From Margaritispora aquatica (taxonomy: Eukaryota; Ascomycota; Leotiomycetes; Helotiales; Discinellaceae), in NCBI GenBank assembly GCA_007644065.1, contig VJWN01000010.1, positions 1,426,001 to 1,490,000 of the forward strand: a stretch of 64,000 bases of DNA, written 5' to 3'. The notes under the pieces are model-generated. The model was not told the DNA's origin. It saw nothing but the letters and a program-made list of their open reading frames with translations, and searched no databases. Of this stretch, positions 1,932 to 60,739 are shown one piece after another (the first letter of the stretch is position 1; every line of letters starts with the position of its first letter). The position numbers were made by a program, and so were the translations under genes.

Positions 1932-3570
1932 GATAGATCTAGGATTATACTTGGTGTACAAGATCACGATAGTTGCAATTACGATGTTCCTACCACCTTG
2001 TAAGTATCTGTTTGTAGGTTCACATGAGAGGATGGGAGTGGTTTCAGTTGTGATATATTCTTAGATCAACTAGACTTACTTTGACTTTGCAACAGAAAAT
2101 TGGTTCGAGTGTGAGGATATGGAGATGTATATGACAACAGAGCTGTCTGGGAAAGCTCAGGAAGAGATGGGTTAAGGGTTGTATTTAGCTGTATCTTCTA
2201 AACGAGCAGGAACCAGAACAGGGCTGAAGTGTCTGTTAACAGATTGCAGAAGATCCACAAGCCTCAATACAAACGGGGCAACTAAAGCTGCTAGTCCTAT
2301 TTGCAGAAGCCTCATGGAAACAAACTCGACCAACAGCCTAGGGCGAGAATAGCTATTCCCTATTGCCACTCTAGCTTCCGGAAAAGACTGCGTACCTTCA
2401 CTCCGAACCACTAGAAAGTATCAGCCATTCAAATCGCCGATCCTTGGCTCAACAACGATTCGTCCCAGCTACCAGGTCTTGGAGTTGATGTGGCTCAGTG
2501 GACCCTGTCCCCATCAACTGTCAGGCCTCACACTGAGCGTTGTTGGGTGATGGCTGATTGCCTGATTCGCTGAAACAGACCCAAAAACCAAGTTGGTGTG
2601 GTTTGGAGGTTGAGTAAATAACGTTGTGTAAGTTCTCTTGCGGCACGCCTGATGGGTTATGTGCGTTGGTAACAAATAGGAGGAGTGAGAGGCAAGATCG
2701 ATGTTATTCCATTCGCTCGCATCATCCGTCTTTGTGTAACTTGAGGGTTTTCCAACACTTCAAAAGATATGCCGATGGGAAATATCTAGCTGAGAGTATC
2801 ATGTCTTGAGCTAGGTAACAAATCAAGCAGCTGGCAAATACCATCTATATTATCCACAGTTACCTTCATCGCCCCCGACATAGCTATTGCTCGTCCTTGC
2901 CATGATGTTGGTGAGGGGTACATGCTTGCCCGAGGAACACTTGGCAGGTGGATTCTTCTTGAAGTAGATAGAACTGGAATAGAATTCAACACAATCAGGT
3001 CATGATCTCAATAATCAATCACAGGGATAGGCTTAAGCTAAAGTTGGATGGATAAGCTGACCGTCATCTACCCCAACTTTGCGGCGTTGGATCGCTTGGA
3101 ATACGCACGATGTTCGATGGCTGCAGCACCAGGGATGTCGATGCATGCAGCGCCCAACTGGGACAAATGTTTCTGTGAAAATAGCAGAATTCCAAAGAAA
3201 GACATTGCAGAGAGGACCAATATAACACGGGTTTCAACCCAATCGCATGTTTCCCACTTCGTGCAACTTCGTGGGGCCAAAAGGACTAGGCTCATCTTGA
3301 TCCTGGGGTTGGGCCATTCTCGATCTGAGGCAAGAAAGGACACATAAAGGAATAAACACAAGGCAACATGCCGGTACACTTCGCAAGCTAGCAACACAGC
3401 CAAAGAGAAGAAAAACTGGGCGAAGCATAATCGCCGATGGGGAGCAGTGTAAAGGATTTTGCCTATGACCGCCTCCGATTCCGTTGTAGGCAATCTGGAT
3501 AGCTCGCTGGAGCAAGACAGACTGGATTCAGCTCGCAGAAGAGGGGCAAAGTTGACCCGTGACAAAAATG

Positions 3571-3616
3571 TACAGGCACATACACACATACACATATACA
3601 CACATATACATATACA
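3571..3616. repeat. CA/TA dinucleotide-rich microsatellite
   Basis: Alternating ACA and TATA steps repeat imperfectly across about 45 bp, a simple-sequence tract in the intergenic region. No function is implied. Confidence 0.7.
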
Positions 3617-5249
3617 GGCAGAGTATTATATTTTGCCGCGAATAGCTCATTGTTGACGGTTGACCACCAACCAAAGCCAAGGCCAGCGCTTACCAGCGAC
3701 TTGGAAATCCCATCCGTGATACACAAAACACAATTGGCCACAGAAAGCCAACGCGCTGAGTAACTTCAATGGGGCTGTGACTGCAGCACGCAATATAACG
3801 CCAGACAAAGTACTTGATAAGGAATTGCGTCTGTGAATAGCAAGGCCAAAATATGCAAGAGGCCAAATAGGTATGAGAAGACGGCTCGGAACACGGCAGA
3901 CAGTCCACAGAGGAGTTAGCTTAGATACATGAAGTGATAAAAGAAGGAGTTAAAGTTAATAGGAGCGACAGTTTTTCCTGGTCTCCATCAATAATGTTGT
4001 TGGAGCAAGTTGGAAACCGGGGAAAGAGTGGAGAGAATGCTAGAAGGATAAGGTACCTAGGGAGGAACAACAACAGTAACCAGACTGGGAGAACTAACCT
4101 ACCTATTAGCCAACCAACTTGTCCGCTGTTGGTCCCTCTCCAATTTTTGACCACAACACATCAAATAGTTGTGTTGCCAGGGCATGTTCAAAGAGGCACA
4201 TGACAAGCTAACTGGTTATAGTGCTTTCTATCACAGAGTACTGCATATTCTCACGGCCCAGAGCCACGTATCTGGAAAGTCGTGCAGGAGTGTAGGGTGC
4301 CACCAGATCCACAAGTCATAGCTTAGGTTTTTTATATCTCGTCTACATTGCAGCCAACAATGCGTCGGATTTGCCTCGGCGCAGAGTGTACTTCCATGTC
4401 AAGAACTGAAAGCAGTTCGAATATGTGGAGAGTGAGTATTGAGCTCAAACTTATACAGGTGGCGATTTGACGATCCAAAAACTTTATAAATCCATCACCT
4501 ACTGCTTGATTAGTATACTGGACTCTTCATATCAAGAGGAGGCACTATGTTTATGACTTGGCAGTTGCTTAGAATAGGATGTGGGTGGTGATGTTTTGTT
4601 TTATCCAAGTTTCTCAAGCCGGTGCCGTTTTGCGCATGATCCATTACACATGTTACCTGGAGTTTTAAGAACTTGTACTTGAAGTGGCATTTGATATATT
4701 TCAAAACACAAAGGCAGTGCTGTTGAGAAGTTTTTTGTTGGTCATTACAGATTTTAGGAAGCTATTCTTCCTCACCAAGTGGTGTAAACAAGATCTTGGT
4801 GGCTAACTACATAGAGGTTACTTCATCATCAATGGGAAACCATTCCATACAAGATTCAACCAAGGTAGCTGAATCAACCAACCAAAAGAACCTTCTCGCT
4901 GTCGTGTCCCGGGGAAAACACTAGCTATCAGCATTGAAGTTTCTCCAAGTCCTTTCCTAACATGGTTTCCTTAAAAATGTTTCCTGATTGTTGGTTTCTT
5001 TATACAATTGCTTCACTTAATGATCCAGAGAAATCAAGTCATAGGAAGGTGTTTTTAGATTGTCATTGCCATGATGTAAAGCAGAAAGTAGCCACACAAC
5101 TCGCCCTATAACCTGTAAACATACTGCCAAGAATTATAATATCCAACAAGAATTAGACATCAATAACCTCTGTAAATTCAATACTACGATTCTTGGGAAG
5201 ATGAAATAAAGAGAAATTTTATTTCTTCTGAGCCCTGGACTTAGACTTT

Positions 5250-16156: not shown

Positions 16157-17347
16157 CTATTCCCCTGGTATATCGCCGTCAAAATAATCCGTAAATCCAG
16201 CATTGGGTCCATCTCTGTTCAGCAGATATTTCCATCTATTCCGGTCTGCTTTCAGATATTCGGGAATGTCCTCATTATCCTCAATTCTGAGATACATCTC
16301 TCCCTTTCTATCCCATAAATCCTTGCCTTTCCGAACCCTGTCCATAATTCTTGTAGGATCCCTGAACACCTCTTGGTTAAGTCCTGTATGGCTGAAGCTG
16401 GACATCTTTGTGAGAACTTGCTCAATAGTCTCAAAACAAGTGCTACAATGCCAACCGGCATTGAATAAATCTGCTTTATCCCACCAGCCGACAAGTCGAT
16501 TGCCTCCTTCACCATTCCGCAGATCGGCTGGCAGGATTGTGTTCTTGACCCCTCCATATATTGTCGCTTGTCCGTGGGCCCATTCGACTCCTTTATGGAG
16601 GTTTTGGAAGCCGTAGTAATAGAAGCGACTTCGAATAGTGATACGTTTGGGTATATCGCAATTGCGCAGCACCATCAATGTTGCAGGTCGCGGAATCTCA
16701 TCGACGTCACTAACAACAATAATGTCTCCTAAATGTGCTTCTTGGCTACCCTTGAGTCCAGTAAATGTCTGAAGAAACATCGCATTTCGCTGGTAGTCTT
16801 CGAGATCCCACGTCCTCTTAACATTTATTGGTGGATTTTCGAGTAGATGGTAAATGATCTTGTCATGGAACTCTTTCAGGCGATCCCAATTATCCCTCAA
16901 GTACAGCGGCTTGGCTTTTCCTGTAAACGTTACAGCGCTTTCTATTATGACGAAATAATCGACAGTCGCTGCCAGAGTATGCAGCCTAATTTCCAGCCAG
17001 TCCAGCTCGTCGTTGATCATCAGAAGATCATACACTTTCCGCCGAGTTTCCCTTAGTGGATATGGCTTCCATAGATGCGCCAAACATAACGATTCAGCCT
17101 CTGGAAGAGGTAGGAAGCCATGGTGCTCGACCTCTTTGGCAGGATCCGGACGATGGGATGCCTCGAAGTCGATGTCGGCTCTGGTGATAGTATGCGCTGC
17201 TTTCGCAAAAGGATGCTTTCGGTCGTTCCAGGTAAGAAATAGGTAGAGAACGGCAAGAGCAAAGAGGATGTGTTTCCAACGGTTACGACAGACGTGTAAA
17301 AGCCCTCGGCATCGTCTCCGTACCCCAGAGGTGAGATGAAGCAACAT
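16157..17347 (-). CDS. Glycosyltransferase family 17 protein (beta-1,4-N-acetylglucosaminyltransferase-like)
   Basis: Single exon, 396 aa. A short basic N-terminus is followed by a membrane segment at about residues 26-42 (ILFALAVLYLFLTW), giving a type II Golgi-type topology. The GT17 core follows: KVYDLLMINDELDWLEIRL, then YFVIIESAVTFTGKAKPLYL and the acidic metal-binding stretch VVSDVDEIPR. These match the family of GnT-III-like enzymes that add a bisecting GlcNAc in animals. In fungi the acceptor is unknown, so activity on secreted-protein glycans is inference. The ATG at 17347 gives the membrane anchor directly, which supports this start. No intron is needed. Confidence 0.9.
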   Translation of the reverse strand: MLLHLTSGVRRRCRGLLHVCRNRWKHILFALAVLYLFLTWNDRKHPFAKAAHTITRADIDFEASHRPDPAKEVEHHGFLPLPEAESLCLAHLWKPYPLRETRRKVYDLLMINDELDWLEIRLHTLAATVDYFVIIESAVTFTGKAKPLYLRDNWDRLKEFHDKIIYHLLENPPINVKRTWDLEDYQRNAMFLQTFTGLKGSQEAHLGDIIVVSDVDEIPRPATLMVLRNCDIPKRITIRSRFYYYGFQNLHKGVEWAHGQATIYGGVKNTILPADLRNGEGGNRLVGWWDKADLFNAGWHCSTCFETIEQVLTKMSSFSHTGLNQEVFRDPTRIMDRVRKGKDLWDRKGEMYLRIEDNEDIPEYLKADRNRWKYLLNRDGPNAGFTDYFDGDIPGE

Positions 17348-18347
17348 TGCGCTGGCAGACTAATTTGCGTTCGATATAATAAAGTTTGCGCTACCGAGAC
17401 ATGATTGAGGAATTGCCCGGCAAGAAGTTGGACAATGGACGACGGAGTAGACCAGAGAGAGGTTCAATTGTCAACCTTCTTTCCTGCGCCGCATGCGCAT
17501 GCCATGGCATAGAGATACGAGATGATGGCTGTTGCACCATTCGACAAGCTCTCCGGTCTCCCCTGTTGAAAAGGGCTGGGGCCTAGTATGTTTGAGCTCC
17601 GGGCACCGTTTGTGTTAGTGAAGTGTGGGTTAGCGAGATGCTTGACATACATGGCAGATCATGGTCGCCACAGGCGAGAGAGAGAGAGTGTGTGAAAGTA
17701 TTGTGAATTTTCTACATTTTCATAATCAAACCAAGCGTAAAGGGACCAGAACCCTGTGCATGTACTGTGCGTGAGTATATGCGCAAGATATTAGTATTGA
17801 AAAACTTGGTGGACAAAATAGATGAAGAAAAACAATAATGCGATGTTGATGTTGGACAACAAATACTCGCCGACCGACTTGCAGGTTACCCTTGATACAA
17901 AGAATTACATCGCGCAAGTGTCAATGCAATTTCATACGTCAAATATAATCCTCCATCATACTATTCATGTTGAGAAAGTAATAGTCACCTGGTCCTTATC
18001 GTCCTTTCGTAGGCAAGCTGAAAACAAACACTAGGCAAGGCAGGTGGTGGTTGTCACCACCTTATGCAAGGCTGATTGATGGTTGCTCTTGGGTTTTGTG
18101 ATGATACCAATATCGAACCCCAACAAATCCCAAAGCTTCATAGTTTCTCAAATACGACATGAGACGATCGTTTTCCGCTGTGTTTAGCCATGGAAAGCTA
18201 CCTCTCTTGAGGCCTCCAGGCAACTAGACATGTTGAGACAAGCACTATTGGGCTTCAGAACTCAGCCTCGCTCTTAGCACAAGACCTAGATTTAAAAGCG
18301 ATCATCCTTCCAAAGGAATTCGATACAGAGCAACTGGCGATTGCACA
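17348..18347. other. Divergent intergenic region
   Basis: About 1 kb between the divergent GT17 gene and the gene starting at 18348, so it should hold both promoters. A short GA run is present near 17681. No coding frame was supported. Confidence 0.5.
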
Positions 18348-26654: not shown

Positions 26655-28664
26655 ATGGAAGCGACAGAAGTTCAAGATTCAGATGCTCAAGTATTGAGTC
26701 GTTTGAACGAGGTCTTAGATGACATTAAGGAGATCAGAGAGCTCTACCACGCCCCTTCTCTTTCATTTAGCGTACTCCATAAGAACCAGGTGAGTTCATT
26801 CTGGTAGTTAAGCTTTCTAAGCGTTGTACCTAGTTGGGGCTTGTTGGACATCTTGCTTAAGCTTGCCAATGAGGCCGAAAGTACTGTACTGATTATGAGC
26901 TTTGGAATAGACTATCTTCCATCACAGTCTAGGAGCTCGAGATGTGGAAACACAGCAGCCAGCCGATGAGAACACTATTTATCATCTTGCTTCGATATCT
27001 AAGAGCTTTCTCTCTGCACTTGTAGGAATCGCTGTTTCTGAAGGCAAGATCGGCTGGAAAGCTCCGATTACTACCTACCTCCCGGATTTCAAACCTTCTG
27101 ATGACCCGGAGGTTGGAAAGGCGAGAATCCTTGATTGTCTCAGGTATGTTCCACCCAATTTGGTACTTTACAGGAACTTGGATGTTTAAGATCTGAAATA
27201 TGGTCTGAAATTTCGTCGAACGACAAATTCGTGTCCAATAACCAGAAAGCCGCTCTTACTTTTATTTATTTATTTATATACGCTAACATTAACAAAGACA
27301 CTCGTCTGGTCTTGGCGATGCCGGTCATATGATACTTGGTCCCAGAGATTTTGGTTTGTAAGTGACTACTGAGAACAGAGACTGCTTGGTATTCCGCTGA
27401 CATAAATGCCAAAAGGGTCAAGGAAGAAAATTTCATCGAGTTCTTGAATCAATGTCCCACTAGGGGTGAAGATGGGGAGAGCAAAGCTAACAACTGGGCG
27501 TATAGCAATGCCGGATATGGAGTCCTTGCATTATGCCTCCAGAAGGTATATGGAATGAGATACTATGAAATCCTCCAACAAAAGATTACGCGACCTCTGG
27601 GTTTAGATGATACGATTGTGAGTTTTAAAGAACTGGCCACCAAGTCCAACATTGCGCATTCAACAGCCACGCTTGAGGACGGGACGGTCGTCCCACTCCC
27701 CTGTCGTGCAATTGATGAGACAAACACTCCGATGCTCGCTGTGGTGGGAGTCATGAGTAGTTCAAAGGACTTGCTTAGGTTTGCCCAAGCTATCATGGAA
27801 GCTGAGAAGATTGAGAACGAAACCCCAGATGATCGGCCCCCGGTTTACCCACCAGGCAATCCATTGAGAGAGGTGTCTACCACCCGCGGTAGAGCATACT
27901 GGAGCCGACCTTGCTATGATAGCTTCCAAAATGAGGCTCGATACTGCTTTGCGTGGTTTCGGGTAGTTATGCCTTCATCGACACTGATCACCCTTGGCCT
28001 GAACTCTCCTACCAAAGAAGAGCCTCTGGATGAAGAATTTATCCTCGGCAGGGAGTCCCCCAAAACGGAGGTGCTATTGCACTCCGGTGGCGCCCAAGGT
28101 TCGACCTCAATCATGTATACATTCCCAAAGACAAGCAGCGCCATCGTTGTCTTTTCAAACAGCTTTGCAGGTGGGGATGCAGCTGAGGCGACAGGCCTGG
28201 TGCTTATTCAAGCCTTGCTTGATTTGAAGCCACGAGTCGAGGTGCTCAAATACGGAAAAAAGGCAACTGCAAAGGCTGCAAGATACTACGAAGAGGCTAT
28301 TGAGGAATGGCGCAAGACTCGAGATATCAACATAGAAGAAGCACCCCAAACAGAATACGTGGGGAAGTTCACAGCCCGCACGCTTACTTTGACTGTTGAG
28401 CTTGAGCGATCGGAATCAGGAGAGGAACAGCTGATGCTTACATTTGGGAAAATCCCAGAGACAAAGAGAAAGCTTGAACTGTATGGGAAGGATTGCTATA
28501 GCTGTTTCCCTACAACCAAAGATGAGTGGTTGAAGGAGTCTCTGAGGCATTGGCAGGGGACGACTGGCGTCTTCATATTTCAACGAAACGACCAAGGCGA
28601 GGTTACAAGCATATTATGGAAGTATACCACAAAGGAAGAAGCGGTTGTCATGGTCAAGCAATAG
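26655..28664 (+). CDS. Class C beta-lactamase-like serine hydrolase
   Basis: Four exons (26655-26789, 26911-27143, 27298-27357, 27416-28664) give 558 aa. The catalytic SxxK motif appears as SISK at about residues 71-74, the YxN motif as YSNAGYG at about 172, and an HxG-type third motif as LLHSGGAQG at about 365. These are the three active-site elements of the beta-lactamase/transpeptidase-like (PF00144) fold, which also includes esterases, transesterases and D-peptidases. The second exon start at 26911 restores HHSLGARDVE, which matches the family's xGxRD strand. No signal peptide is visible, so a cytosolic place is likely. It converges with the acyltransferase gene 214 bp away. Acyl transfer or hydrolysis in a metabolite pathway is inference. 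Confidence 0.88.
27261..27280. repeat. TTTA tetranucleotide repeat inside an intron
   Basis: The second intron of the hydrolase gene contains a short TTTA run, explaining part of its unusual 154-bp length. Confidence 0.6.
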
Positions 28665-28878: not shown

Positions 28879-30422
28879 TTAAGCCATTTCCAGCAACTCT
28901 CTCTCCACTTCTGGCCATAGGTCGCTTCTCAAGTTGCCCTGAATCCAATACCCGCCAGAGTGATCCATTCCCAGAATCGGCCAGCTACCACGTGGCGAAA
29001 GGCCATTGGAGTGGCCATTCAAGTTTACAAAACTTGGCTTCGAGAAAACCGCTGGTCCATCATGCTCCGCCCTTTTCACCACTGCTCCTCCAAAATCCAG
29101 CTTATAAAATCCAGCCTTGATCCAGTTCGAGAAAATAACCATTCTAGTTCCTCCAGTCCCGAATGAAGGTGGCCAGCCAGTCTGCTCGACGGCTTTACGT
29201 GTAAGAGCAGCTAGTGCATGGACTTGAGCAGGTGTTGTTTGTTGGACGATTGAACTACGGATGAGCGAGGCGGTGTATGCAAGAGGCTTAGTGAGAATAT
29301 CCGAAGCCGTTCCAAATGCAGAAATGGTGAAGACAGCATTGGAGAGATACACACCAGTTGATGGTGGTAGAAGAGACGAAGAAAGAGCTTGACGGAAATT
29401 AAAGGCATTCATTATAGAAATTTGACGATTTGAGGTACAGCTTTCATTCTTCAGAGCGAGCCTAGTGAGATAAGCGCACAGAACGTCCCCATCAGAAATA
29501 AATGGTGGAGTATGCTTCTCCAAATCTGGCTCGGATTTTGAATTGGTAGCGAGGAATTGCAAGGCAGTGGTTTTCATAGCAGCTATGTGGCGTCCCGGAA
29601 TATAGAGGAGACGCTGGGAGTCTTGGTAAAAGATGAGATCAAAAACATAACGAATAGTGAGCTGGAACTTGTTGAAACCAGTAAGAAGGTATGTTGCGAG
29701 CGAATACGGTTCCGTTGCCTCAGTTCCCAGCATGGAGAGGGGATCTTTGTCGAAATTACCGATGGAAGGAATTTCTGATTCTTGCCCGTTTAGAACCATG
29801 GTCCACGCATTGAGAACCGAGGACATTGCTGTAGCATCTAAGAAAGTATGAAGCCAAGATATTGAGACCAATGTAGCATCTTGAAATGATACAATGTGTA
29901 AAGATAGCTGCGGCTCATCTGCGTATAGGAAATCCTCGAGCAACTTAGGTCCATCTTTTCTGTGAGCGAGATCCCCGAGCTCTCCAAGGTCACTATAGAT
30001 GGCGGAACCATCGGACGGCCTTGGTATACGCGAGGCCAGAGGATGATGATTGATGCCTGTTTCATGAGCTTCATGAGTATACCCGAACCCAGGTCTTGTT
30101 GCGTCGTAGGCTGCTGGTATGTGGTATTCGAGTTTCCCATGAGGCTAGATAAAGTTAGTCAAAAGATCTCATAAATATAGGAGCAGCATAAAATACGAAC
30201 AGTCATTCTCAAGCGAGCTCCAAGCTTTCTCCAATCTCCAATTTCCATTAGTCTCGCCAATGCGGAACGAAGTCGTTCGGGATCAAGGATATCATCGAAA
30301 CGCAAAGTGATATACAATACTACAGACCTATTGATGGCGTTATCATCAAAGATATGTACCGGGACGATGGTATCTGTAGAGACAGTAGGAGGAGTTTTGT
30401 ATGCTGTTCGAAACCACCCCAT
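28879..30422 (-). CDS. BAHD / PF02458-type acyltransferase
   Basis: Two exons (30422-30201, 30144-28879) give 495 aa. The donor is GTTCGT, less common than GTAAGT, but the acceptor TATCTAG and phase-0 joining give an uninterrupted protein. The acyltransferase motif HxxxD is seen as HTFLD at about residue 173, and the C-terminal structural motif DFGWG is represented by DFGGA. The family transfers acyl groups from acyl-CoA to hydroxyl or amine acceptors and is frequent in fungal secondary metabolism. The ATG at 30422 (MGWFRTAYK) was preferred to an upstream in-frame one because typical family members begin at this point and a TATA-like stretch lies near 30630. It is on the same strand as, and downstream of, the regulator gene. 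Confidence 0.87.
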
Positions 30423-35144: not shown

Positions 35145-36624
35145 TCATAGCCTGACTTTATGACCAGTCATTTTCTCCCACAACACAGCTACCAAGTCTT
35201 CCTTAAATCGCTCCCACGGATTACGGTTCAGGTAATTGCTGAGTTCTCGGAAATTGTACATCTCGCCCCAACAATCTCTGCCCCACTCGCACCCAGCCAT
35301 ATTGACGACAAAATCGCGTTCCTTTTCATTGTAGTGGATGCGAGTATCGTTGCCATTTTCGGAGCAGGCACCTTGTGGAAAACTATTGATCATTCGTTGT
35401 GGGATAAATGCTGTGTGTGGTCGAATCCAGGGTTGGTTAATGTATAGGAATTCCATTGCGTCCTGTTCCTTGTGTTCCCACTCCATGTGCTTCTGCTCAT
35501 AGCCTACTGGATCCCACCATACGTCTAAGAGCCGATCTGTCCATGCACTGCGTCGGACAAAGAAGGAACCCAAGTTGAAGCCTGAACAATCTTGTGGGAT
35601 GATCAAATTGATTGATTCAGGCTTGTCGTCACCCACCGGACTTCGCGCCTCTATGTCCAGGTGATCAGCTGTGAATGGATGTGAGATATTCAGTGGGTTG
35701 TATTCGTTGATGTCGCGGTAGGTATTCGCTGCGAGGTTGTTGAAGATGTGCGACTGAAGAGAATACGACGGTTCCATAACAAAAGTATTCAGGTCCATCC
35801 ACCAAAACCTAGCGTAAATTAGCACATGTGCAAGTACACATTCTATGATCTTACCATTCCGCTTCTGGGTATTTCCGTAGACAATTTCGAATCGTGTCAA
35901 CCTTCTCCCAACTCTCTCTCCACTCATGAGCATATCTCTTCTTTGTGCTCATGTCTACAATTTCTAGGTCGTATCCCCAACGGTTTGCGTATTTTTTCTT
36001 GTTTCGCACACTATCCCTCTCAATGGCCCATTCTCGAGGCCCTTTCCATTCCATAACACCACCTCCTTGGTTTGCTGCAAGGATGATCACAAACTTCTTT
36101 CCACCTCCAATTGACTTTGCTCTCCTCCAGTAGTAATGTAGAGCTGACGCCAGTTAGCACAGTTTCAGAAACTGGAAAGTCAACTTACGAGTGATCCAAA
36201 ACAGAATATACATCACCACAAACGCAACGACAAGCATCACTCGTATTTTAGTCTTGCGACTTGTCTTCTTCACCATGCTCTTCACACGTGCTATCCTATT
36301 GCTCATCTTTCCCCACCTTCCTCGTCCAAGCTTCTCCTTCTCAGCATATGACTTCTCCTCTGCCATGTTGAAGCTCGGCAGGCTATTCGAGATATTTCTA
36401 TAGTGCCGATTGAAGAAGCCATTATTTTGTGTCGAAAACGAAGGATATCCATTGACGCCCTCTGTTTTCGCCTTCGCAGATTCCCATGTCACCGAAGAAC
36501 CTGCTCCATTTGTGCCTCTGTATGATTTTGCAGGACTGGATCGTCCACTGTTTGCGAAAGGGCTGAGACCAGGACTTGCCCATCCACCCCCAGGTCTAGG
36601 GGATGGACTTCGCGATAATGACAT
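35145..36624 (-). CDS. mnn10: GT34 alpha-1,6-mannosyltransferase, Mnn10-like
   Basis: Three exons (36624-36189, 36143-35855, 35808-35145) give 462 aa. The enzyme belongs to the Golgi mannan polymerase II-type complex that extends the alpha-1,6-mannan backbone on N-glycans. A Ser/Pro-rich cytosolic tail (MSLSRSPSPRPGGGW start, as in other filamentous fungi) precedes a membrane segment MLVVAFVVMYILFWI at the end of the first exon. The luminal domain includes FVIILAANQGGG, RWGYDLEIVD, the active-site stretch FWWMDLNTFVMEPS and the late NLIIPQDCSGFNLGSFFVR. The frame is open upstream of the chosen ATG but contains no ATG for over 300 bp, so 36624 is the supported start unless an upstream exon exists. 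Confidence 0.92.
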
Positions 36625-38998
36625 TGGCAGATTTGGAGTACCGGGAATTGTTTCGAGGGTGCTAAAGCTGCGACCTAGCGATGTGTGCGATGAGGTATGC
36701 GATGGTGCTTGGAGGGTCAACTCGGACGGCACATTTGAGGCTGAAGACCGTCTTCGATGATGGCCAAAGGAGCCGGGTTTCGAACTGGTGGAAGACGAAA
36801 ATGCGGCCGAGGGGTTTAGAGAAGCCAGGTTGACTGTTTGAGAAGAACCAGATGGCTTGGACCGTCTGGATCGTTTGGAGAGTGCGAGGAATCTGATTAC
36901 TAAATCAATTGGGGAGGCTACGCTGGGATGCGTCTGAAGGTTTCGGGTGTTTCGTATTCCTTTTTTTGATAGATGTGTTCACACTTCAACGTTCGTGATT
37001 CTAGCACGGCAAGGTATTTGATTCGTTGAACCGCAGAACTATGCAGATACGAGATACTCGAGGCAATTCGTTCGTATGTACTGAGGTACACAGAACCTGC
37101 GATTTGGTCGTTCTAGGAGCAGAGTAATTGTTATGGTAGGCGACTTGAGTACGTATTTGAAGTGGAACCTCAACTGCTCTGGTGGGGCTTGGCGGTGCTT
37201 CGTATTTTGATAAGGATTTGGGTTCAGGGTGTTCTTGTTTCACTCTTCACTTCGCACGATCGAGATGATAGTTAATGAAGCTGTAGAGAATTTGAAGCGC
37301 AAGCAATTGTGAACTTTTGGGGAGGAGAAAAGAAATCTGGTCACAAAATTACAGTATTAAAAATGACCTTGCTCCCTCCACACGTTTAATTAACGTTCGT
37401 CGAGGATGACTTGAGTGGATACTTACGCTGATTAGATCACGGACATTTTCGACATTACCCCTTTTTAGTTCGAGTCTAAGGGACGACTCCTATACCGAAG
37501 TAAGGTATACTAAGGAAATCTCAACCTCACTTCTATGTCAATGGAGAGTTTGAACATCACATCAAGAAGCTCGCCCTGTGAGATCATTTGCAATGCTATG
37601 ATTCGTACCTATCGAGTACCATTCGATTTGGTAAGTGAGGTGAAAATTATGGAAGAATCTGAAGACTCATGTGTGGACTTCAGTAAGCTTTTAAGCGTAA
37701 GTATACCTATGATAGTCATCATATCATAGCAAATCATTCTTCATGGCCAAGTCAACATCCCAATGGACATCGAACGCTATCCTGCTCCTCTCTTAAAGGT
37801 AGGCAAAAATCTCAGTTCTCGATCATATATCATAAATTTTATACGAACTTGGAAATCGAGAGGAAGACGTCCTTCAACCCTCTGGAAGGCAGTGATAATT
37901 TCAAGGCGAACGGCTTTCCTTTCATATCCAAGTTACGGCGCTAAATCCACGATTATTCGCAGGCCAGCGGCAAACCACTACAACGCCCATGGTTTGTATG
38001 GTGTGCATGAGATGAGGCTGAAAACCCCCTGTCATCCCAAAAGAACAAAGACAACATCTCATCTTCTCACACCAAATCTCACGTCCCGCATCTCATCCGC
38101 TCAACCACATCTCATGACAATAACGAATCCAAGCAGAGTGAAGGATAGGATCTCATACTACTCTTCCAATTAAACTCAGTTTTGCCCATTCTCTGGCATG
38201 CTAATGGTTCAATTTTAGTACGTCCAGCCATGACCGGTTGATTGGGTCTGGTGTCTTCGAAGCGCCCTGATCGGAGATATTTGTCGTGAGCGCTTAATGC
38301 AACGACATCCAACGAACCACCATCCAAGGATCTAGAGAAAAGAAGAAAGATCAAAGTGAATGGAACGGCTAAATGAGACTAATAGTAGCAAAGAGCGATT
38401 GCTATCGAATCATAATGTCCTGTCTTAATTTGGATGAGTAAACTCCACAAGCCTCGAACTGAGGTGGGACATCTGCTGTCGTACGTCGTGACCTTACTAA
38501 CTTGGTCTTCATCGACCGGCCATGAATCTCGAGTTTCATTTCTGTCTTCATACTTGCTCTTGCTCTCTTATCCATCTTACTTCCGGTTTCTCCATGCGTT
38601 GTTATTCGTAATCTTTGTCGAAAACTTCCATTTTCACCTTCTTTGTTTTTGATCGAGCTTCACAGTCTTTACCTATTTTTGTCGCTCCAGAATTCATCGT
38701 TGCTCGCCTCACTACTATTGTCTTTCTTTTAACCATTGTCACCTACCATACGAACTATACACTACAATGCCTTTGTTTTTTTGTTGATCAATGCGATGAC
38801 ATTTTCTCCTTCATCTATGTCGAGGATCCCGAACCACCATTCCCACAGCCTTCTTGCATCTCCCGATCGATCTTTCCTTCAAAAGAAACAAAACAACAAG
38901 CAATACAACTGCACTGCGGAATTCACAAACTTTCACCAATCTCGACATTCTGTAGAAGCAAACTTTGGTAGGCCTGCAGGTGCTTTCACTTGTTGAGT
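36625..38998. other. Divergent intergenic region
   Basis: 2.4 kb between the Mnn10-like gene and the large membrane protein gene, transcribed away from each other. The part next to 36624 is an open frame without ATG and probably 5' leader. Around 38049-38115 there are repeated CTCATCT/CTCAC words. Nothing else was supported. Confidence 0.5.
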
Positions 38999-41900
38999 AT
39001 GTCTCAAGCTAGCTCAGTTCCAGGAGCAAATCGCGTACCTCAACCCTCGACCAGTCGCACAAATAATCCATTCAATACTGTTTTTGATCACCAGGAAGAT
39101 ACTGAGGATGAGTGGTGGGACGAAGATACTACAGATTCAGCCTCTATCAGTGAGGTTGAGACGAAGCACAAAAGGAAATCTTCTGGGGTCAGCATACCTA
39201 TTGGGCTTGGATTAGTTGCTGCACCTGTAGCTAGGACCAATACTCGGAAAGTGGATAAAAGGTACTCTGTCCAGAAGCCGATCAGAGAGAAATCGAAAGG
39301 TCGACAGAGGAAGCAGAACGCAAGAGCAGGAATTAAAGTGGTCACAAACTTTTCGCGTCATCAACCAACAGAAGCCCCGGTTCAATTGCAACCATCAAGA
39401 CAAGTAGGGTGTTTTGTTGATTTGGCAGCTTTACAAGCACTCAATGGGGAGGACCAGACTCAACCATCAGGTGGATTTTGGAAGTCGAAGAAATCGAAAC
39501 AGTCAGCAAATGTAGACAGCTCTGCACAAAATGCTTCATATAACGAAAATCTTAGCCCAGCGAAAGGCCACCCGGTCTTTACCCAGCGCATGGCTGGAAA
39601 GAAGATGTATCATGTTCCTCCTCCACTCAGGCTGAATGAGGATCTGTCACCAAACGACCGACCTATTGTCATTGGCATCTCAATCCCCTCAGCATCTCTC
39701 GCCGAACATGCAACAAGCCCAGGAACGGCGACAACAAGGCTAGTTCCGAATTATGAGCATCGTACGCCAACCAACCTAGAGTCAGAAACACCAACAATCA
39801 TCATTACACCAGCCCAAGAAAGTGCAATCTGGACACCTCTGGATATGCAAACGAGAACCGGATACCCCACCCACCCACAGAACCAAGTGCCCCCCATGCC
39901 GTCGGTCCCTATTTCATTCTTGGAAGGAGAGAGGGAGCGGATTGTAGCTCAAAATAGCTATTTCTCTCCAGATTCAGATGACGCAACGAATTGGGATGAT
40001 GAAGAGTTTCCAAGATCTCGTGTCGTCTCTACGGGCACAATTTTCGAAGAGGACGAAACTCCCATACTTGACAGGAAGGATCGAGTAGCATCATCGACTG
40101 TAAGACCTCGAAATGCTAGTATCAGTACTGTTGGAACTCAAAGGCGCTCTCTGGGATGGTGGAATTACATCACTACCCCGTTTCTGACACGGTCAAACAC
40201 TATTGCCAGCCCAAATACTGCCACCGAGCCTCCACCAGCTCTTCCCAGCCTCGCAGTTGCTGCTGCAAAGGCTCAAAATAGTGAAAGAGATGCAAACAAG
40301 TGGGATAAGCAATTCTCACCTCTTACCCCAGCGACATCTACAACAATAGCATCTGATTCTTGGTGGGATGCAGATGTCAAGGAACGGAAGTCTTTGGCGC
40401 AATCAACTATTGTGCACGAGACGAGACATAAAGTTCAGACGTCGTCCGCAACACTTCCAATCATTCGTTCAGATGCAGAAGAAGCAAACTCGTCAGGCAT
40501 TGTCTCTCAACACGCAACTCCACATATTCCATCGCCAGATCTTGGGACTGATCCCGCGTCTGCAAGTAGCGAAGAAAGTCAACATGTAGCTGGTCTACCT
40601 CAGACGACAAGCTTGCGGAGCAACAACCCGTTCGTTCAACCTCGGATGAGTGATTTAAATAGACACCAGTCCCAAAGTTCTAATGAACCAGCTCGCCAAG
40701 TCGCGGCCCCCGTGTCTGTGACAATCAATATCAATAATGTAGCAGCTCCCACTCCACCTCCACCTTACTCACCCACGCCTACTAGAATAAGATACAGAGC
40801 TATTTTACCTCCTTCAGACCCACCAATTGCCTCGACTGCCCCAATCGTGGAGCAACCGCTTTCACCCGGTCCAATTTCGCCTGGTTTACAGGCAGCGATG
40901 TCATCCCGAGGAGATATTCCTATGTCTACAGTTCCTTTGACACCGCCTGCTCGGAGACCTATCAACCTTAACTCAGGCTACCCCGAGTTGCCAGTGCGAC
41001 AGAATGGTGGAAATTTTGTGAGCGAATATATTCTTGCTCCCTCAAAGCAAGCTAAAAAGGCCGAGGCAAAGCGTCAAAGATATGAAAAAGAGGAGGGCAT
41101 TGCTCGAAAAGCTGGCGGGTGGTGGCGTGGTCGTGGATGCATCTCCAACAATGGATGCTATGGAAGGAGTGGTGCTGAGGGTCGTAAGAGACGACGCTGG
41201 TATCTAGCACTGATTCTCATATTCCTTTCCATCATAATCTTGGCTGTCGTGTTGGCAACAACTCTCCATCGAAAGTCAAACACGGTTGTAGAGCCATCTC
41301 AATGGTTAAATTTGACAGGATTTCCACCTATCTTCTTAGGCATGTCAACCGTGGCAGCTCCGGTCAATATTCTTGCAAACACAGGATGTGTATTCCCAGC
41401 GACACAGTGGAGTTGCGATTTACCCAAGGAGCTTCATGCTTCAGTTGCCCCCAACGACCCAAGTCAGCCCAACTTCTTCATTTATATGCAGTGGGATAAT
41501 AGCAGTTCAACAAACGCCACTTTTGCCAACGTCACAGGTTCAAGGACAGTCACAAGGAGGCTAGTTGGGAACCCAGTGTCTGCCAGACAGCTCATCAAGC
41601 GTTTATTACTCAAGACTCGTGATATTGTCACATTCGTTCCTTCGCCAGCACCTCCTACATATGCAGAGGCCACATTCTTGGGCAATACAACAGATGGCAT
41701 CGCTTCTAATCTCAAAGCTGGAGAACCAACACCATTTTACATATCACTCTTGTCCAAAGCGAACAGTACGATTGGCAAGAGACAGGTCTTTGAACGAGCT
41801 ATTTCAAACTCATCAAACGCTTTTCCAAATGTCACAGATATCATTCCAGCACCAAGCTTAAATCCAGACGGAACTGCAGCACCAGCGAACCTCCTTCCAT

Positions 41901-42487
41901 TTCCCAAGCAACAGCCGATCAGGCTTTACGATCGAGGTTTACCTACCGAACATTATGGCTTTTATACATATTTCGATCGATCAATATTCTTGAAATCCTT
42001 AGCACTTCTGAACAACTCCAACATTGGCAACGGAGAAGTTCCAGCGGATCAAAATGGTGGTGCTACGGAGTCTGAGGCTGCTTTCAGATGTACTTGGACT
42101 GAAACTCGATTTCTTGTGCAGATGTGGACTCGGCGCAATACCACTGCTCGCCTGCTGAATGGCACTCATGTGTCAACTCCAGCAACAGCTGCAACCGACC
42201 TCAAGCAGCCTGGATCATTCCCTTACCCTATCACGATCACTACAGATAGACATGGAGGTGATCCAACGAAGAAGCTGATCTATTGTTATGCAATGGACGC
42301 CCGAGAAGGCATCATTGCAGGAAGTGGCAAACTGAGCTCTGAGAGTCGTGGCTTTGGAGGATTGGCTATCAACCCTTCCCCGGGCTTCTTCTCGAATTTC
42401 ACAGATACGAGTCTCGGAGGCTTTGATGGTGGAACAGGAGGATGTAGCTGCCAGTGGAGTAATTTCCAGAATTTGGTAGCATCTTAG
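38999..42487 (+). CDS. Large single-pass membrane protein with disordered cytosolic tail
   Basis: Single exon, 1162 aa from the ATG at 38999. Residues 1 to about 730 are low complexity, rich in Ser, Thr, Pro and charged residues. They hold two NNPF motifs (near the start and in SLRSNNPF), the type bound by EH-domain endocytic proteins, and several Trp pairs (EWWDED, GWWNYITTPF, SWWDAD, GGWWRGRG). A membrane segment lies at about 735-757 (YLALILIFLSIIILAVVLATTL), preceded by a strongly basic patch (RKRRR), which predicts the N-terminus inside. The roughly 400-residue exterior part has many N-x-S/T sites and a few cysteines, ending GGCSCQWSNF. I do not recognise a catalytic domain. A role in the cell wall or plasma-membrane surface is inference. 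Confidence 0.88.
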   Translation: MSQASSVPGANRVPQPSTSRTNNPFNTVFDHQEDTEDEWWDEDTTDSASISEVETKHKRKSSGVSIPIGLGLVAAPVARTNTRKVDKRYSVQKPIREKSKGRQRKQNARAGIKVVTNFSRHQPTEAPVQLQPSRQVGCFVDLAALQALNGEDQTQPSGGFWKSKKSKQSANVDSSAQNASYNENLSPAKGHPVFTQRMAGKKMYHVPPPLRLNEDLSPNDRPIVIGISIPSASLAEHATSPGTATTRLVPNYEHRTPTNLESETPTIIITPAQESAIWTPLDMQTRTGYPTHPQNQVPPMPSVPISFLEGERERIVAQNSYFSPDSDDATNWDDEEFPRSRVVSTGTIFEEDETPILDRKDRVASSTVRPRNASISTVGTQRRSLGWWNYITTPFLTRSNTIASPNTATEPPPALPSLAVAAAKAQNSERDANKWDKQFSPLTPATSTTIASDSWWDADVKERKSLAQSTIVHETRHKVQTSSATLPIIRSDAEEANSSGIVSQHATPHIPSPDLGTDPASASSEESQHVAGLPQTTSLRSNNPFVQPRMSDLNRHQSQSSNEPARQVAAPVSVTININNVAAPTPPPPYSPTPTRIRYRAILPPSDPPIASTAPIVEQPLSPGPISPGLQAAMSSRGDIPMSTVPLTPPARRPINLNSGYPELPVRQNGGNFVSEYILAPSKQAKKAEAKRQRYEKEEGIARKAGGWWRGRGCISNNGCYGRSGAEGRKRRRWYLALILIFLSIIILAVVLATTLHRKSNTVVEPSQWLNLTGFPPIFLGMSTVAAPVNILANTGCVFPATQWSCDLPKELHASVAPNDPSQPNFFIYMQWDNSSSTNATFANVTGSRTVTRRLVGNPVSARQLIKRLLLKTRDIVTFVPSPAPPTYAEATFLGNTTDGIASNLKAGEPTPFYISLLSKANSTIGKRQVFERAISNSSNAFPNVTDIIPAPSLNPDGTAAPANLLPFPKQQPIRLYDRGLPTEHYGFYTYFDRSIFLKSLALLNNSNIGNGEVPADQNGGATESEAAFRCTWTETRFLVQMWTRRNTTARLLNGTHVSTPATAATDLKQPGSFPYPITITTDRHGGDPTKKLIYCYAMDAREGIIAGSGKLSSESRGFGGLAINPSPGFFSNFTDTSLGGFDGGTGGCSCQWSNFQNLVAS

Positions 42488-57041: not shown

Positions 57042-59002
57042 GCTGATTTTTTTGTTGTTGTTGTTGTCGTTTGCAAATAAAGGGAGAATCTAGAGACGTG
57101 GCCGATATTTTACGAGCGCGACCTAATCTGCAGCCAAAGGTGACAGCAAGACGAGACAACAAACGTGAAGGAAGGGGCTCCGGAACGTGAGATGTGGAGA
57201 AGATGGAAGTTGGCGGTGGTGGTCTGGATGGAAGATGGCAGTTTCGTTCTGTGATAGGTACGAGTAAGGTATTTCGCCTCGTGTCAACAAACAATAATCG
57301 CAAGCTTCAGATGAACAAAATGTTGCTTTTTCCTAAAACAAGCACAAGAATCAATCTTGACTTTTTTTTTTTTTGGTTATTATTTCTCTTCCAAGTAAGG
57401 TACAATACGCCTTTCAAATATTGATGAATGATGAGAATAGGGGGTTTCTCAATTGCGTGTGGGGTCTGAGTCTGAGGGGAGCGTGAAGGATCCGAGGACG
57501 AATTGAGTGATTGTCCACTGGGTTTGTTTATTTTGAGGAGCAAAATATACCGAATGGAGGTTAGATTGAAGTTTCTCTTGTATCAGATAGACAGACTATT
57601 TCTCTATACAGTTTAGTGCTCTTCAGGATCAGACTTTCTCATGCATGTCAAACGGCACCGATTTTGGGAGCCGAGGATTGGGGATATGATTGGGGAGAGG
57701 ACAGGCCGTGACAGGATAGAGTTGAGAGTTTCAGAACTCTAACCGATGCAGGGGCCGATGAGAGTGGACACTTGATAGGTTGGACACAAAAGTGGCAGAA
57801 ACGGTCAGGTCATACATAACTTACCTTCATACAGTATAGTATAGTAAGATCTTACTTACAGTCCTTGGTAGGCGAGGTGGGAAGAGATATACTATGGAAA
57901 AGAGTATATTTGAGAAGAGACGAGAAGACAGAAGAGAGAAGTGGGAAAGGAATTAAGCAAGTAATCGTGATCAATGTGACCAGTGTCAGTGAGTGGGCTT
58001 GTTCTCGTCCCCCCGTGCTAGCTCAGTTCTGCTTTGTTTTTTCATCCGAGGTTTTCTCTCCATATACAGTGTCCATGTGTCCATGTGTCAATATATCGAT
58101 ATATCGATATATCAATATATCACGTCCCTAAATCTCGGCTACGGGAATGTCAGTCATGGAGAAGCTTTCCCTTCCTTCAGATGAGATGATGGTCAAAGTC
58201 ATACCGATATCGTGAGGTTGTGTATCTATCCATCTCAAGTGAGACCTTCCTGTCTTATTTTCAACAAGTATATTCCGAGGACAACTTCAAACATCTTCAA
58301 CTCTCACCGTCGCAGCCTCATGCAATGGAAATATCTTCATGACACATGACACAGGAGAGTCAGGAGGAGAATGAGCAGAGTCATGAAGAACAACAAACAA
58401 GACACAGCTGGTTCGGCAGTTCGTTCACTGCTGAAGATCTTTTCTCGCCCTCTCTCCCTATTCCCTTTTCATCCCAAATCACACCGACTCCCACAATCGG
58501 TTCCCGATGTCCCACCTCAATCGCCCAAATGGCGTAAGGTAACGGCACAATCCTCTTGTGGCTTGTTTCATGTTTCGGTGACGCAGAACACCACCATCAA
58601 TCGCTGGAAAATGTTTCTCACGCCCCATCATCCACACATTCAAAGTGACCCAATCATAAACCCCCATTCCGTTTCATGCTCAACCATCTTCAACCCCATT
58701 TGGGAAGCGGCTCAAATGGATTGTTTGCTTGTTTGTTGTCGTTGTGTGCACTAGTCGTAGGGGTGTAGGTGCGTAGGTGCGCAGGTGCGTGCAGAAGTGA
58801 CACCTGCAGGTTATCTCCGTACATTAGCTGAAGATGCATCATGAGTGAGCGCTTGCTTCCTTACCTACTTGGGACTGGGACCGGGAGCTGAAAGCTTGGT
58901 CTTTGTCTTTGGATAGCTCGAGGCCCCAAACATAAACTGGACGGGTACCCCAGTCTTGTCACAGTTTGATACTTCGGATCATTTCCATCCAAGAGCTTAC
59001 CC
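57042..59002. other. Divergent intergenic region with simple repeats
   Basis: 2 kb between the NTF2-like gene and the HeLo-SHD-RA gene, so both promoters lie here. A poly-T run lies at 57362-57375, an ATATATCG repeat at 58090-58121, and a G/T-rich GTAGGTGC-type repeat at about 58761-58795. Short frames are not coding-like. Confidence 0.5.
58090..58121. repeat. ATATATCG tandem repeat
   Basis: Roughly four copies of an 8-bp ATATATCG/ATATATCA unit. Simple repeat in the divergent promoter region. Confidence 0.8.
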
Positions 59003-60739
59003 ATGGCGACAATCATAGCAGTTTTACGATCGTGCATGGAGAGCTTCAAGTCGATCCTCACATCACAAGAGTTCGGTGCAGAGTATGAATTGCTTTGCAC
59101 AGAGCTTTCAACTCAGTGGCTGAGAATACGACTATGGGGAGAGTCGGTGAGTGGTGAAATTTCAATCCTATTGCTTAAGCTAATCAACCAGGTCGGCCTT
59201 CGTATCAACGATGCAGGACATCTCCAAAACTCCCTCTTCCAAAGACCAGACATTGAGTCAACTATCACTCAATGCATCAAGAGCATCGCCTATCTCCTGA
59301 GCGAAATCGAGGTGCTACGGAGAAAATACGAACTCCGACCTGCTCTCATTCCAGCTATCAAGCAGGTTGAGAAATCAGTCCGAGCATGCAAGTCTATGAG
59401 CACCTTGTCGGACTTCAAACGCCCGGCATCGTCAATGAGACAGAGGATGAAAGATAACCAGAAGCAAACTTCCTTTCTGGCAATCACAAAGTGGGCTCTA
59501 TGCGATGCAAAGCGATTTGATGAGAAAGTGAAGCGATTAAAGGGATTGGTTGATGGATTAGAGGATATCTCCTATGCAGCTGGTATCGGTCGAACACAGC
59601 CATCTCGTCATGCACCAACGCAAGAGGAAACCTTACCACCATACTCCATCACTCCACCACCAACACAAGATCCCCCTATCGATCCGGTCACCCTCGACCC
59701 AGGTATTCTCGCCCACCACGTCGCCTTCAAGCGGTTCATCGGCCTCCACACACGCAGTACTTCCAATTCACGGTCAACCCGAGCCCGCCCAAAACTAATG
59801 AGCCTCTCCAACACCCAATTTAAAGAACTCCGCATAGACGTGTACGACGAGCTTCTCCGCCGCCAGTCCCTCTCCGCTCCCCTCTCACCATGCCTAGTAA
59901 GCAACTTGTCATACCACCCAAAACGCAACCAAGCGCGCGAGAAGCTCGCCACACTCGCTCTTCATCGGTTCAAAGATCTCACGACAGACGTAGTAGACGA
60001 GCTCGAGAGACGCTTCACATCGTTGCAGATGCAGGCTATTGATGAGTTGGAGCGAGCGGTGCTGGTTCCCGATGTCTCGACGACGTCACTAGGTGGAGAT
60101 GACATGAGGAGGTATGGGAGGGTGCAATTGGATGCACCACCACGAAGACTGAGGGAGAGGGCATCACATCCAGCTTCCTTCTCGAGACCATTTGGACCAA
60201 GCACGACTCCAACACCGGCTCCGATTCTCGCGAGAACATTGACAGTGAGGGTAGTGGATGTTTCGAGGGCGAGAAAACAAGTCTCGCCAATGACTCGCCA
60301 CTCCTCCCCGGCACCACACGCCCGCTCAGCCCATCTCTCACAACCACCTGAGGCCCTAAGCTCGCATCCCAACCCATCCGACCCCACGAAAACCAGAACC
60401 ACCAGAGTCACCCTTCCTCCCAACCCCTCCAGCAGCAGCAGGGGATCAGTCGAGATCTTCAAGTCCCTCCACGTCTCCATGACCGACCAAACATACAAGG
60501 TGCTGCCCGCCGCGCTGAAGAAATACAACATCAACGCGCCATGGGAGAAGTACGCGCTGTACATCGTGTGTGGTGATGTGGAGAGGTGTCTGGCCATGGA
60601 TGAGATGCCGTTGATGCTGTTTAAGCGGCTGGACCGGGAGGGGAAGAAGCCCATGTTCGTGTTGCGGAGGATTGGGCCTGGGCCTATCGCTACCACGGAC
60701 TTGGTGCCGGAGAATAATGTCGTGGGTGGCATTATATGA
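59003..60739 (+). CDS. HeLo - Spa2/GIT homology - Ras-association fusion protein
   Basis: Two exons (59003-59146, 59192-60739) give 563 aa. The 45-bp intron is in frame, has a GTGAGT donor, CTAATC branch and ACCAG acceptor, and removing it restores WGESVGL, a hallmark of HeLo domains. The N-terminal about 130 residues (FGAEYELLCTELSTQWLRIR and LLSEIEVLRRKYELR) match the HeLo/prion-inhibition family. Two repeats follow at about residues 247-272 and 297-325 with the Spa2/GIT homology pattern KLxxLSxxxFxELxxDVYDELLRR. A disordered linker leads to a C-terminal domain at about 465-548 with KVLPAALKKYNINAPW and GKKPMFVLRR, which matches the Ras-association domain of Ste50-type MAPK adaptors. The protein therefore combines parts found separately in polarity scaffolds, MAPK adaptors and fungal cell-death proteins. 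Its function is inference. Confidence 0.87.
   Translation: MATIIAVLRSCMESFKSILTSQEFGAEYELLCTELSTQWLRIRLWGESVSGEISILLLKLINQVGLRINDAGHLQNSLFQRPDIESTITQCIKSIAYLLSEIEVLRRKYELRPALIPAIKQVEKSVRACKSMSTLSDFKRPASSMRQRMKDNQKQTSFLAITKWALCDAKRFDEKVKRLKGLVDGLEDISYAAGIGRTQPSRHAPTQEETLPPYSITPPPTQDPPIDPVTLDPGILAHHVAFKRFIGLHTRSTSNSRSTRARPKLMSLSNTQFKELRIDVYDELLRRQSLSAPLSPCLVSNLSYHPKRNQAREKLATLALHRFKDLTTDVVDELERRFTSLQMQAIDELERAVLVPDVSTTSLGGDDMRRYGRVQLDAPPRRLRERASHPASFSRPFGPSTTPTPAPILARTLTVRVVDVSRARKQVSPMTRHSSPAPHARSAHLSQPPEALSSHPNPSDPTKTRTTRVTLPPNPSSSSRGSVEIFKSLHVSMTDQTYKVLPAALKKYNINAPWEKYALYIVCGDVERCLAMDEMPLMLFKRLDREGKKPMFVLRRIGPGPIATTDLVPENNVVGGII

Follow-up and report, generated by a model that had tools for sequence, protein, structure and literature searches.

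The window, that is, the whole stretch of 64,000 nucleotides from Margaritispora aquatica that was analysed, carries on its plus strand a single gene at 59003-60739, which starts with the ATG at 59003, has one intron and encodes 563 amino acids when spliced (Table 1). The open reading frame of 58970-60739 runs through all domains even in the unspliced sequence; the intron contains no stop codon, and its length is divisible by three. Removal of its 45 bases increased the Pfam score of the HeLo domain from 88.0 to 99.2 bits. By eye, five relatives (P0002, P0015, P0016, P0021 and P0023) show an insertion of residues here that looks like an unspliced intron.

Pfam analysis of the spliced protein identified HeLo (PF14479; 99.2 bits, cut-off 23.2), GIT_SHD (PF08518; 69.2 bits in two stretches, cut-off 21.1) and RA (PF00788; 46.5 bits, cut-off 21), each at more than twice its own cut-off. 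This is the domain order read from the letters in the earlier note, which had proposed such a scan of the 563-residue product for all three domains and would have taken a lack of SHD or RA hits above threshold as a refutation; both hits were obtained. The motifs it quoted were also found: WGESVGL, which spans the splice junction, two SHD repeats, starting at residues 249 and 299, and KVLPAALKKYNINAPW, which lies inside the RA domain. Among proteins of known structure, the sequence matched the SHD of Neurospora crassa SPA-2 (6lag, 3.8e-18), HET-s/S (2wvo, 1e-7) and GIT2 (6jmt, 1.2e-6). Since the open frame spans the domains and relatives match end to end, the presence of HeLo, SHD and RA in one continuous gene is confirmed at the level of sequence.

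Further upstream, the window holds frames for a glycosyltransferase 17 (16157-17359, minus strand), a beta-lactamase-like protein (27366-28664, plus), a transferase family protein (28879-30144, minus) and a GMA12/MNN10 galactosyltransferase (35145-35948, minus). A frame of 1171 amino acids at 38972-42487 (plus) gave no Pfam match above cut-off.

Table 1. Features of the chimeric gene, in window coordinates
Feature	Position	Strand	Description
Exon 1	59003..59146	+	Residues 1-48; start of HeLo with shortened membrane segment; start pattern common to relatives
Intron	59147..59191	+	45 bases, GT..AG
Exon 2	59192..60739	+	Residues 49-563 plus stop
HeLo domain	59012..59572	+	Residues 4-175, split by intron; Pfam PF14479, 99.2 bits; HET-s/S structures 1e-7
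LPPY	59633..59644	+	Residues 196-199; PPxY position of relatives; candidate WW-domain ligand
SHD region	59711..60037	+	About residues 222-330; residues 222-325 aligned to 6lag; end set by eye
GIT_SHD repeat 1	59783..59866	+	43 bits in profile search of genome
GIT_SHD repeat 2	59933..60013	+	38.7 bits in profile search of genome
Conserved linker motif around RRYGxV...PPxxLxxRAxHP	60104..60172	+	Residues 353-375; family consensus
Ste50-type Ras-association domain	60434..60670	+	Residues 463-541; Pfam 46.5 bits; 78% to own Ste50
C-terminal VGGII	60722..60736	+	Counterpart of Ste50 end PPGGII/PPGGVL, by eye

Relatives and their linker motif

With an E limit of 0.001, a search of the whole database gave 174 proteins. 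Among the best 120 of these matches, at least 49 proteins (P0001-P0049) combine HeLo with SHD, and 45 of the 49 also carry RA according to precomputed domains, the exceptions being P0023, P0038, P0040 and P0044. From P0050 on, the matches listed are proteins found through an RA domain of the Ste50 kind, plus one further relative, P0077. A HeLo plus SHD profile retrieved 58 proteins in all: first family members or their fragments, such as P0126 with HeLo alone in 225 amino acids, and then ten Spa2-like or SHD-only proteins. With residues 1-200 alone as query, 36 of 556 candidates were hits, every one of them a family member. Because HeLo and SHD occur together in 49 proteins, 45 of them with RA, the arrangement is not a chance fusion, and on this sequence evidence the chimeric family is real. 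All 17 named taxa that were looked up belong to Helotiales, so far the only source seen in a search that picks up relatives if they have short words in common with the query and a similar length. The search for the same architecture suggested in the earlier note thus yielded dozens of relatives with the same domain order. Its statement that no such protein had been described holds for the literature searched, in which we found no description of a HeLo-SHD-RA family, but the databases already contain dozens of predicted members, some labelled as 'prion-inhibition and propagation-domain-containing protein' or 'Adaptor for signal transduction'.

In the predicted model of relative P0001 (52 rows), confidence is high for the SHD, where most blocks score at least 90, and for RA, which lies mostly above 95. 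The helical N-terminus is moderately confident and the linkers are disordered. Structure 6lag tops both fold searches.

The linker between HeLo and SHD contains a feature that is new for this family. A PPxY motif is present within the 110 residues before the SHD match in 50 of 53 family rows, while shuffles give 1.3 (for all counts over 53 rows, the fragments P0122-P0127 from the HeLo plus SHD profile search were left out). The three misses are the window protein (with LPPY, known as a variant of WW ligands), P0121, in which the motif was lost, and P0138. The linker of P0138 has PPEY and PPRY but was counted as a miss, since its SHD match began late and the count window was misplaced. PPxY is absent from the Spa2-type frame of the genome and from nine of ten Spa2-like rows; the remaining row, P0136, has one behind the SHD, and P0128 has an LPPY. 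The conserved PPxY of the family is a candidate ligand of fungal WW proteins such as SOFT/PRO40. Thirteen WW matches were found in the genome, 12 of them over cut-off, and a 674-aa frame combines three WW matches with a HECT-like part recognised by eye.

Kinship with Spa2, Ste50 and a MAPKKK

The 42.4-Mb genome that holds the window contains five HeLo loci, the window's included. SHD repeats occur in one further gene and RA at three further loci; the chimeric arrangement occurs at one locus. One of the RA loci is Ste50, with 84-90% identity to Ste50-like rows. Since separate Spa2- and Ste50-type genes are present (both read as single frames, not as full gene models), the chimera is extra. Its RA domain is 78% identical to that of the genome's own Ste50 over 82 aa, and its SHD is 50% identical to that of the Spa2-type gene over 115 aa.

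In yeast Spa2, the SHD groove holds a short helix of Msb3, Msb4, Ste7 or Mkk1 and is lined by Leu 48, 51, 59, 98, 101 and 109 together with Lys 97 and Asp 112 (or Asp 62), as given in the cited passages of PMC12831199; in N. crassa, the groove of SPA-2 serves for CCP-1 (PMC7275032, passage cited). Each of the groove residues is kept in KLMSLSNTQFKELRID and KLATLALHRFKDLTTD of the window protein, according to our own mapping by the published spacing rather than by the yeast sequence. The repeats follow the spacing K-L-x-x-L-(7)-L-x-x-D. A loose pattern of this kind was matched by both repeats in 45 of 53 rows, by one repeat in seven and by none in P0138. The window protein therefore has a two-repeat SHD with a hydrophobic groove, like the polarisome scaffold Spa2/SPA-2. 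It differs from Spa2 in having HeLo and RA instead of the Spa2 region beyond the SHD (PF23742), for which Pfam gave no match in the window protein, and its SHD belongs to a separate clade: in an unrooted SHD tree, a branch divides 52 family rows (P0138 was absent) from 11 Spa2-like rows, with a support of 86/97 and recovery in 89% of bootstrap trees. With another SHD gene in the genome as well, we do not regard the protein as a Spa2 ortholog.

The kinship with Ste50 extends to the C-terminal end, which by eye reads PPGGII in the Ste50 rows P0050 and P0052 and PPGGVL in the genome's own Ste50; a PPGGII-like end is common to Ste50 and several family members. By sequence, RA and tail are thus akin to Ste50 and SHD to Spa2. 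Unlike Ste50, the window protein has HeLo and SHD, and no SAM domain like that at the N-terminus of Ste50 was matched in it by Pfam at E up to 10. Family and Ste50 rows do not separate cleanly in the RA tree (6 changes). The RA of P0003 sits on a zero-length branch among Ste50 RAs, whereas other members evolve fast; gene conversion from Ste50 is a possible cause. P0086, an 891-aa metagenome protein, joins ankyrin repeats to a Ste50-like RA end and is either a fusion or a faulty model.

Four relatives contain an additional SAM-like stretch of about 90 residues, located between SHD and RA in P0016, P0017 and P0030 and after RA in P0138. It is 72% identical (1.8e-44) to part of a MAPKKK on C7, a 1867-aa frame with a C-terminal protein kinase which we take to be Bck1 of the cell-wall-integrity pathway. 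The name Ste11, used here for another gene of the genome, is likewise presumed; kinase and RA/SAM-like parts were seen in the sequences of both. The genome's own Ste11 was rejected as the source of the module because its matches are weak (E 0.019-0.095, against 1.8e-44 for the C7 MAPKKK). What is shared with the Bck1-type MAPKKK is this module in the four relatives; the kinase is not, and the window protein itself lacks the module. In a tree of 27 HeLo plus SHD rows (P0009, P0016 and P0021 trimmed at the default length of 360, the four SAM rows grouped by trait), the module needs two changes, and a single clade of the four rows was rejected (p-AU 0.0001). The copy in P0138 is 43-48% identical to the other three and 49% to the kinase. 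The distribution is best explained by two captures, although the module may also have been gained once, then lost in some members and moved.

The HeLo domain

The usual description of HeLo domains is that of death modules that attack membranes. The domain of the window protein is conserved across the family and, like HET-S and other HeLo cell-death proteins, is recognised as HeLo by Pfam and matches HET-s/S chains. The segment that HET-S inserts comprises about residues 1-34 (PMC3531502, passage cited), and a 2025 review likewise states, in the part cited, that HeLo relies on its extreme N-terminal helix (PMC12881547). Unlike in these proteins, the N-terminal segment of the window protein is shortened: residue 1 aligns at about HET-S residue 11, so that about ten residues of the membrane segment are missing. 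In four Mollisiaceae models the start lies even further in, perhaps because of how they were annotated. The segment is also less hydrophobic. The best 19-residue hydropathy is 1.21 in the window protein and 0.23-1.52 in 20 relatives (1.05 in P0006, scored apart because of about 60 extra residues at its start), compared to 1.89, 1.98 and 1.61 in the three sibling HeLo genes of the genome with a readable start. The two ranges nearly touch, since the relatives reach 1.52 (P0021) and the siblings begin at 1.61.

HET-S positions 23, 25, 33 and 86 correspond to E13, F15, E23 and S79 of the window protein when read by hand from the alignment. Neither the HET-s prion domain nor a fused NLR part was matched in the window protein by Pfam (E up to 10). 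Among the 14 single-frame ORFs of the window, no NLR or HET match was obtained (E up to 0.01), in a scan that is blind to short and many-exon genes. In P0077 from the powdery mildew Golovinomyces and in the close P0121, SHD and RA were matched and no HeLo match is listed, as if HeLo were dispensable in this lineage and had been naturally lost.

These data bear directly on the hub proposed in the earlier note, which linked GTPase, MAPK and polarity signalling to HeLo-mediated death or self-recognition. The signalling half of that proposal is a fair inference given the kept SHD groove, the Ste50-like RA and the MAPKKK module in four relatives, but the link to death is doubtful. According to this view, the protein would be an executioner under polarity and MAPK control: binding of a GTPase or a MAPKK would free the HeLo bundle, which would then permeabilise the membrane and kill or seal the compartment. 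The conserved domain, its alignment to HET-s/S and the acidic residue and phenylalanine kept at HET-S positions 23 and 25 are consistent with this; HET-S itself acts through its N-terminal segment (PMC3531502, passage cited). Against it stand the late start and lower hydropathy of the N-terminus, the replacement of HET-S E86 by S79, the missing prion domain match and the unrecognised HeLo of P0077 and P0121. As far as sequence can tell, the short and less hydrophobic N-terminus makes a membrane attack less likely, and we consider such an executioner unlikely. Some membrane action is possible, because E13 and F15 are kept and P0021 comes close to the least hydrophobic sibling. Judged by its conservation, the HeLo domain must do something specific in the nearly all members that keep it.

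A proposed adaptor and its alternatives

We favour, with a probability of roughly 0.5, a chimeric adaptor that would assemble MAPK and polarity proteins at the membrane, rather than a killer. What it binds, where it acts and in which pathway are what we infer from its parts. The RA domain would bind a Cdc42- or Ras-type GTPase, or an Opy2-like partner such as is known for Ste50, and so place the protein at growth sites. As in Spa2, RabGAPs and MAPKKs of the Mkk1/Ste7 type would each dock with a short helix in the groove of the SHD. PPxY may be held by a WW protein, either an Rsp5-type ligase or a cell-wall-integrity scaffold of the SOFT/PRO40 type. The HeLo bundle, with its killer segment shortened, might serve self-assembly or peripheral membrane contact. 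A SAM-like module of the Bck1 type appears to have been added in two lineages, which would make the cell-wall-integrity cascade the likeliest client pathway. PRO40/SOFT would then have a role in the same cascade, but we claim no sequence relation to the window protein. In Sordaria, the WW domain of PRO40 was dispensable for the partners tested, according to the cited part of PMC4154660.

Some observations do not fit such a scaffold well. By itself, it does not account for a HeLo domain kept in nearly all members. In 8 of 53 rows, at least one of the two SHD repeats escaped the groove pattern, the RA tree does not part family from Ste50 rows cleanly, and the window copy has LPPY instead of PPxY and no SAM module. 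Furthermore, the coiled coil and neighbouring part through which Spa2 goes to the tip (PMC7275032, passage cited) are missing in the window protein.

Similarly improbable to the executioner is a competitive decoy, in which SHD and Ste50-type RA, separated from the rest of Spa2 and from the SAM of Ste50, would titrate partners and dampen signalling. Neither SAM nor any other Spa2 domain was matched in the window protein, and separate Spa2- and Ste50-type genes exist with which it could compete. A bare decoy, however, would not need the conserved HeLo, PPxY and further linker motif, and the probably twofold gain of a MAPKKK module suits an assembling scaffold. A ubiquitin-ligase adaptor, whose PPxY would bring a WW-bearing HECT ligase to polarity or MAPK clients bound by SHD and RA, seems to us slightly more remote. 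It agrees with the PPxY in 50 of 53 rows and with the 674-aa frame of WW matches and a HECT-like part, but the window copy has LPPY, P0121 has lost the motif, and the 12 WW matches over cut-off offer other candidates. That two or three neighbouring genes were read as one is extremely improbable, since one open frame passes through all domains and dozens of relatives with the same order sit on other contigs.

Going beyond the adaptor reading, one may speculate, with little confidence, that a cell-death fold was recruited early in Helotiales into the core of a growth-polarity and MAPK scaffold. Such a protein would sense the Cdc42/Ras state and cell-wall stress signalling, and its HeLo bundle could be switched to assemble on the hyphal membrane, to seal it or to breach it. 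Tip growth or fusion would then be tied directly, at the molecular level, to regulated death. With a HeLo domain joined to the Spa2 effector groove and to the part of Ste50 that reads GTPases, and with a MAPKKK module that was probably gained twice, the family would be a case of this fold at work in growth signalling. It could provide a concrete handle on the coupling of death decisions to tip growth and cell-wall stress signalling.

A further HeLo gene of this genome lies on the minus strand of locus L014 (G000:C47:624500-632500) at 3138-4802. Its frame contains HeLo (102 bits), which resembles that of the window by eye, followed by what weakly resembles (16 bits) the first part of a GTPase of the Ras family. 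Further Ras matches, of 78 and 36 bits, lie in the two frames after it, and from the sequence the locus would be either a HeLo-Ras fusion or two abutting genes.
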